Part shown: piece after piece, positions 57,866 to 58,767 of the stretch
Layout of the letters: each line of letters starts with the position of its first letter
Numbering within the stretch: the first letter of the stretch is position 1
Origin: Synechococcus sp. LTW-R
GTDB taxonomy: Bacteria; Cyanobacteriota; Cyanobacteriia; PCC-6307; Cyanobiaceae
NCBI RefSeq assembly: GCF_014217875.1
Contig: NZ_CP059060.1
Coordinates: 1,488,001 to 1,552,000 of the forward strand
Length of the DNA stretch: 64,000 bases
Direction: 5' to 3'
Made by a program: the position numbers and the translations under genes
The notes under the pieces: generated by a model
Databases searched by the model: none
The model's input: the letters and a program-made list of their open reading frames with translations, nothing else
What the model was told of the DNA's origin: nothing

Positions 57866-58027
57866 ATGAACTGGAAACTAGAGGCCGAGGCCAAGCTCAA
57901 GGAGATCCCCTTTTTTGTGCGCCCTGCCGCCCGTAAGCGCATCGAAGCCATGGCCAGCGAAGCCGGCCTGGATCTGATCGACGAAACTTTTTTTGAAAGC
58001 GCGAAGGCGAAATTCGGCCAGAAGTAA
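57866..58027 (+). CDS. PCP_red-domain small protein
   Basis: From the ATG at 57866 the product is 53 residues: MNWKLEAEAKLKEIPFFVRP, then AARKRIEAMASEAGLDLIDE and a short tail ending KFGQK. It closely resembles the small proto-chlorophyllide-reductase 57 kDa subunit-like (PCP_red) domain proteins of cyanobacteria, with the conserved IPFFVRP and RKRIE pattern. Its role is not established; a link to chlorophyll synthesis is suggested only by family name. It follows tRNA-Ala by 32 bases. Confidence 0.8.
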   Translation: MNWKLEAEAKLKEIPFFVRPAARKRIEAMASEAGLDLIDETFFESAKAKFGQK

Positions 58028-58099: not shown

Positions 58100-58122
58100 A
58101 AGGGTTTAGCTTTCAAACCCTT
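58100..58122 (+). promoter_or_regulatory. Hairpin in front of a small gene
   Basis: AAGGGTTT (58100-58107) and AAACCCTT (58115-58122) form an 8-bp perfect stem with a 7-base loop, only 8 bases before the ATG at 58131, where a ribosome-binding site would lie. There is no Shine-Dalgarno match. It may be a weak terminator for the upstream gene (TTTCCT follows) or a translation control hairpin. Confidence 0.45.
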
Positions 58123-58130
58123 TCCTGCTC

Positions 58131-58331
58131 ATGTCGCAGTCGAAGCGCGAGCAAGTGGTGAGCCACCTGCGTTACATCCGCCAAGAGCTGCGCGAGATGC
58201 ACCAAGGCGTCATGGAAGACGGCCTGCTGCCTGAAGCCGGCGAAGTGCGCGGCGTGATGGCCCAGATGGAAGCGCTGCTGGAACTCCTTGAAGGAAAAGG
58301 CAGCCGCAAAGCCAAAGATGGCGACAAGTGA
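58131..58331 (+). CDS. Small conserved-looking hypothetical protein
   Basis: A 66-residue helical protein: MSQSKREQVVSHLRYIRQEL, then REMHQGVMEDGLLPEAGEVR and an amphipathic helix (VMAQMEALLELLEG) with a Lys-rich end. No membrane segment. The pattern is that of a short cyanobacterial protein of unknown function. An intrinsic terminator follows 17 bases after its stop, so it is expressed as a short transcript, alone or with the PCP_red gene. Confidence 0.65.
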   Translation: MSQSKREQVVSHLRYIRQELREMHQGVMEDGLLPEAGEVRGVMAQMEALLELLEGKGSRKAKDGDK

Positions 58332-58347
58332 GCTGAGCTCATCCGTC

Positions 58348-58373
58348 AAGCCCGGGGAAACCCGGGCTTTTTT
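58348..58373 (+). terminator. Rho-independent terminator
   Basis: A 9-bp stem AAGCCCGGG/CCCGGGCTT (58348-58356 with 58361-58369, loop GAAA) runs into TTTT (58370-58373) on the plus strand, closing the small upstream gene and isolating ycf20. Confidence 0.93.
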
Positions 58374-58419
58374 AGTGCCCCTGCGGTAAACCTCAGTCCA
58401 TCTGCCGGCGACGCCTCCC

Positions 58420-58767
58420 CTGACCCTGCTGCCCCCACCCCAACGCACCCGGCTGCAGCGCAACCTCGGCGGTGCCTGGCCGCGCCTGGAGCGCTGGGCG
58501 AGCAACCCCTGGCGGCGGCTCTCGGTGCTGCTGATCGTGCTGCTCAGCACCTTTTTCCTGGGGAACGCCATCGCCACCCTGACCGGTGCGCGCTCGTTTC
58601 TGGACCCCCCTGCGGCGCTCCTCTGCGTCTTGGCCATCGAAGCGGCGATCCGCCTGCGTGGTCCACTGCTGCGCAAGACCAGCAATCGATTGGGGCTGCA
58701 GCTCCTGGACATGAGCCGCATGGGCTTTTGCTACGGCCTACTGCTGGAGGGCTTCAAGCTGCTCTGA
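58420..58767 (+). CDS. ycf20: Ycf20-like (DUF565) membrane protein, apparent CTG start
   Basis: The coding frame includes the DUF565/Ycf20 features NPWRRLSVLLIVLLSTFFLG, then FLDPPAALLCVLAIEAAIRL and the C-terminal SRMGFCYGLLLEGFKLL. It has two or three membrane helices. No ATG, GTG or TTG lies in frame between the upstream TAA (58387) and the GTG at 58525, which is inside the conserved part. A CTG at 58420 would give a natural N-terminus (LTLLPPPQRTRLQRNLGGAW, 115 residues). Real start is therefore uncertain: CTG, or an upstream sequencing change. Ycf20 homologs are linked to energy dissipation in algae; here function is unproven. It starts after the terminator at 58348-58373. Confidence 0.75.
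   Translation: MTLLPPPQRTRLQRNLGGAWPRLERWASNPWRRLSVLLIVLLSTFFLGNAIATLTGARSFLDPPAALLCVLAIEAAIRLRGPLLRKTSNRLGLQLLDMSRMGFCYGLLLEGFKLL

Follow-up and report, generated by a model that had tools for sequence, protein, structure and literature searches.

The locus lies in a window of 64,000 nucleotides (G000:C1:1488001–1552000) taken from a complete 2.4 Mb genome, here called G000. It comprises ycf20, a Ycf20-like gene with an unusual putative start codon, together with the small gene above it and the spacer between them. The features are as follows, with positions counted from the first base of the window:

58131–58331, plus strand: upstream gene encoding 66 aa, without matches in Pfam or NCBIfam and present ahead of ycf20 in the 20 genomes that have CTG or TTG at the start position
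58348–58369, plus strand: terminator-like hairpin with a T tail, in the spacer that separates ycf20 from the upstream gene
58386–58391, plus strand: conserved GTAAAC, a possible −10 element of a promoter belonging to ycf20 itself
58387–58389, plus strand: TAA stop in the ycf20 frame, with no ATG, GTG or TTG from there to 58525
58420–58422, plus strand: CTG, the putative start codon; CTG in nine and TTG in eleven of 25 same-genus genomes, with coding-type substitutions from here on
58420–58767, plus strand: Ycf20-like (DUF565) coding sequence, 115 codons from the CTG plus the stop TGA, with a PF04483 match
58525–58527, plus strand: GTG, the first canonical in-frame codon, rejected as the start because of selection on codons 8–34

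The open frame at 58390–58767 on the plus strand reads TSVHLPATPPLTLLPPPQRTRLQRNLGGAWPRLERWASNPWRRLSVLLIV... from the TAA at 58387 and continues uninterrupted to the TGA at 58765–58767. Its product matches the Pfam family PF04483 (DUF565/Ycf20) with an E value of 8.5e-10 and 39.3 bits, above the gathering cut-off of 27, which bears out the identification as a Ycf20-like gene made in the first-pass annotation; we take Ycf20 to be the name for DUF565. The match covers residues 71–124 of the 125 translated and no more. The product has no match in NCBIfam and no sequence match to solved structures at E 0.01. Membership of the Pfam family is shared with the YCF20-like genes of Arabidopsis, from which the present gene differs in being cyanobacterial and, as we infer from sequence comparison, in being initiated at CTG. 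The Arabidopsis genes have been linked to thermal dissipation, according to a title cited in PMC12791165. Two Ycf20-like matches are found in each of the 25 same-genus genomes searched, and a second Ycf20-like stretch of G000, 31% identical, is located outside the window at G000:C1:801015–801338 on the minus strand. Near ycf20, a 53-aa protein encoded at 57866–58027 on the plus strand consists solely of the PCP_red tail domain of the light-independent protochlorophyllide reductase subunit B (PF08369, E 4.4e-16). A 202-aa open frame at 58113–58721 on the minus strand runs antisense to ycf20 and the upstream gene, and its third-position-biased differences are those expected of a frame that mirrors the genes on the sense strand.

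As the first-pass annotation had stated, the frame contains no ATG, GTG or TTG between the TAA at 58387 and position 58525, where the GTG is the first canonical in-frame codon. Translation could begin at this GTG, leaving the upstream part untranslated and giving an 80-residue protein; the Pfam match falls within such a product and by itself is no evidence that conservation reaches above 58525, as had been claimed. The relatives provide it. To compare them, we numbered the codons from 58420 as codon 0, a register obtained in 25 same-genus genomes by counting back from the conserved NPW. The nine genomes with CTG at codon 0 comprise group a (G000, G014, G017, G003, G021 and G010) and group b (G004, G022 and G020). 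The 25 same-genus genomes all carry the block from TRLQ to NPWRRLS (58447–58524), with minor differences. In the wider family, with matches in 285 of 300 genomes and 260 of them outside the genus, we examined 60 of the latter: the top 40 by score and another 20 from lower ranks. All 60 have an aligned counterpart of the N-terminal block ending in NPWR, and all 60 have an ATG, GTG or TTG in the open frame ahead of it; in some, the canonical start directly abuts the block, as in MQNTRL.

The substitutions within the block point the same way. For codons 8–34 (58444–58524), the comparison of G000 with G017 gave a dN of 0 and a dS of 0.27, that with G003 a dN of 0 and a dS of 0.41, and that with G021 a dN of 0.06 and a dS of 0.77. 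Selection appears weaker in comparison with group b, dN being 0.12 with a dS of 0.37 (G004) and 0.54 (G022). Of the positions in these 27 codons, six first, four second and 19 third ones vary across the nine CTG genomes. The purifying selection on codons 8–34 and the canonical starts ahead of the block in all 60 further members together indicate that the block is coding and that translation begins ahead of it. The internal start at 58525, which the first-pass annotation had named as grounds for abandoning its reading, is contradicted by this selection, and we regard it as very improbable.

The codon at 58420 is TTG in 11 of the 25 same-genus genomes, in the same 115-codon register, and the length from codon 0 to the end is 115 codons in all 20 genomes with CTG or TTG. 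The remaining five have neither: a TTG lies four codons past codon 0 in G018, G005 and G024, the last of which has GTG at codon 0 itself, and G001 and G019 have GTG far upstream of that codon. Nine CTG and eleven TTG at a single codon would not be expected by chance, and the position proposed for the start in the first-pass annotation is thus upheld. CTG occupies the homologous start codon where no canonical start is available, and it is common to nine separate genomes of the genus. In these nine, codon 0 is unchanged and codons 1–7 vary at two first, two second and seven third positions of seven. The invariance of the CTG would alone be weak evidence for a start: of the 22 columns that are leucine in all nine genomes, five are codon-invariant, including the CTG at codon 11, which varies among CTC, CTG and CTT in the TTG genomes. 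The case for a start codon appears strong because of the TTG found at the same codon in sister genomes and because the coding pattern has its boundary there. As the TTG is at exactly this codon in eleven genomes, the start position is likely to be common to both groups.

The presence of TTG in eleven relatives might also suggest a sequencing or assembly error, the true codon being TTG, GTG or ATG. The first-pass annotation had left the choice between a rare CTG start and a sequence change, and had held that a canonical codon here in relatives would imply an error. The canonical codon is indeed found, as TTG, but the error does not follow: the same CTG recurs in nine separate assemblies, of which three are complete single-contig genomes, and the sequences around it differ from one another. 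Since eight other genomes share the CTG, a base error in the present assembly is excluded for practical purposes, its probability being close to nil, and of the two options the CTG start is the one that stands.

Above 58420, the substitutions are of another kind. In the six group a genomes, the ten codons above this position vary at 10, 9 and 9 of 10 first, second and third positions, and the seven codons just below at 1, 1 and 6 of 7; the pattern above resembles that of non-coding DNA, with codon position ignored. In the alignment, G003 and G021 each carry an extra base above the CTG that shifts the frame there, and the numbers of open codons above the CTG in the six genomes are 10, 10, 10, 15, 27 and 10. 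Because the substitutions ignore codon position and single-base indels occur, a start above the CTG is unlikely. This bears on the possibility that another non-canonical codon serves as the start, be it the CTG at 58402 or the ACG at 58411 on the upstream side or a CTG at codon 2, 3 or 11 on the downstream side. The upstream CTG is found also in G014 and G017 and the ACG also in G014, but G003 has CCG at 58402. Among the downstream candidates, codons 2 and 3 are not kept constant; codon 11 is CTG in all nine CTG genomes but an ordinary leucine codon in the TTG group, whose TTG lies at codon 0. From the stop to codon 11, no ATT, ATC, ATA, ACG, AAG or AGG is common to the nine CTG genomes, and three of them have none. 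Taken together, we find a start at any of these other codons improbable and retain the CTG at 58420.

To place this codon in the context of its genome, we compared 256 kb of G000 (10.6% of the genome) with two 260 kb portions, one from G017 and one from G003. We found 49 frames in which third-position-biased differences extended above the first canonical start, and scored these against the codon usage of 90 long frames. For 47 of them, a different frame over the same bases scored higher, and these are therefore mirror images of other genes. The two that were the best frame over their own bases were ycf20, whose stretch above 58525 scores as coding by the codon usage of its own genome (0.15), and G000 1428063–1429154. 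The latter was rejected as a second case, as its stretch above the first canonical start scores −0.32 and is not coding. Within this sample, and for genes matched in both relatives with frames of at least 50 codons and stretches of at least 15 codons and five differences, no second non-canonical start was found and ycf20 is the sole case.

The CTG and TTG genomes differ in what precedes the gene. The stop of the upstream gene is 88 nt above the CTG in G000 and 61–98 nt above it across the nine CTG genomes, whereas in the 11 TTG genomes 0–8 nt separate it from the TTG. A hairpin followed by a T-run is visible in this spacer in the six group a genomes and absent from the three of group b; terminator-like sites number two in the 511 bases scanned, compared with 0.7 expected in shuffles. 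All nine CTG genomes have GTAAAC, TTAAAC or GTAGAAC approximately 27–30 nt above the CTG, as counted by eye, and a consensus scan of the locus for sigma-70 promoters found no match. Between −20 and −4, none of the nine CTG genomes has a Shine–Dalgarno core, and a Shine–Dalgarno-like GAGG is found there in one of the 11 TTG genomes. Compared solely with windows in the body of the same gene, the start region (−10 to +10) of the nine CTG genomes is predicted to be 0.53–0.76 unpaired, against gene-body means of 0.37–0.46. Of 38 overlapping gene-body windows, 0–3 are predicted to be as open in each of the CTG genomes and 3–24 in the TTG genomes.

The putative start reads CTGA in all nine CTG genomes, and the overlapping TGA could end a small leader frame from which ribosomes reinitiate at the CTG. 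Short ATG or GTG frames do run into this TGA in G004, G020 and G021, and a TTG frame does so in G014. Against termination–reinitiation, such a leader frame is absent in five of the nine, G000 included, that of G014 would begin within the terminator T-run, and the A of CTGA may be explained by ACN as the second codon. With five of the nine lacking the frame, we reject reinitiation as a common rule and consider it unlikely as an explanation of the CTG, if marginally less so than a start at another codon.

The initiation machinery shows no sign of change. We found the anticodon stem GGG-CTCATAA-CCC of the initiator tRNA in 20 genomes and IF3 in 19 of the 25, with each present in all 14 of the better assemblies, and both look ordinary as far as their sequences tell. 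With that stem present in 20 of the genomes, an altered initiator tRNA is not supported as the cause.

We consider it very likely that ycf20 encodes a 115-aa protein translated from the CTG at 58420, and that the following explanation holds as a whole. The ordinary initiator tRNA would decode the CTG as formyl-methionine, and the product would have 115 residues. In the CTG groups, ycf20 would have a promoter of its own and a short leader; in the absence of a Shine–Dalgarno sequence, the unstructured start region would allow direct binding of the 30S subunit. In the TTG groups, where the gene lies right behind the stop codon of the upstream gene, it is probably translated by coupling. As CTG is a weak start elsewhere, low-level expression of ycf20 would be expected.

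The history of the codon was studied with a tree built from pyrB and the part of ycf20 that begins at codon 8. The nine CTG genomes fall in two places of this tree, and no single branch separates them from the rest in any of 200 bootstrap trees; the starred branches are still compatible with one origin. Two histories accord with the data: the CTG may have arisen twice, or it may be older and have given way to TTG in the genomes in which coupling came about. A more speculative proposal is that the CTG has been selected as a deliberately weak, IF3-sensitive start giving low and tunable output of a photoprotection-related protein, gained or kept in the two groups along with a separate leader and an open start region, the codon being TTG where the gene is coupled to the one upstream. 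We think this doubtful, although less remote than any of the alternative starts weighed above.

Genetic code table 11 includes CTG among its start codons. In PMC11497404, CUG accounts for 0.024% of bacterial start codons and is very inefficient, with an output in Escherichia coli of 0.86% of that of AUG. For switches from UUG to CUG, PMC5622118 gives one among 2,468 ancestral UUG starts, and in mycobacteria CTG is described in PMC4633059 as showing no enrichment at leadered starts and as initiating poorly at leaderless starts. Against this rarity, the CTG of ycf20 is held in nine genomes and at two places of the tree. Like ycf20, the rare CUG-initiated genes of other bacteria have the codon at the homologous start, presumably read by the initiator tRNA. 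The sigR gene of Streptomyces likewise has a non-canonical start codon, which is reported in PMC5472188 to expose its translation to repression through IF3; that repression is a feature of sigR, which differs from ycf20 in its codon (GTC), gene and phylum. Our literature search of open-licence papers, judged by titles and the opening lines of abstracts and in one case by the best 15 of 2,545, found no report of a CTG start in a cyanobacterial gene.

The conserved CTG start of ycf20 would thus be a new example of a known rarity, well supported by comparison. For annotation, its consequence is that a gene finder limited to ATG, GTG and TTG would start ycf20 35 codons late and lose a conserved part of the protein. 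For biology, the gene offers a natural comparison within one genus, between ycf20 with CTG and its own leader and ycf20 with TTG behind an upstream stop, and may be used to ask which context lets CTG work with an ordinary-looking initiator tRNA and IF3.
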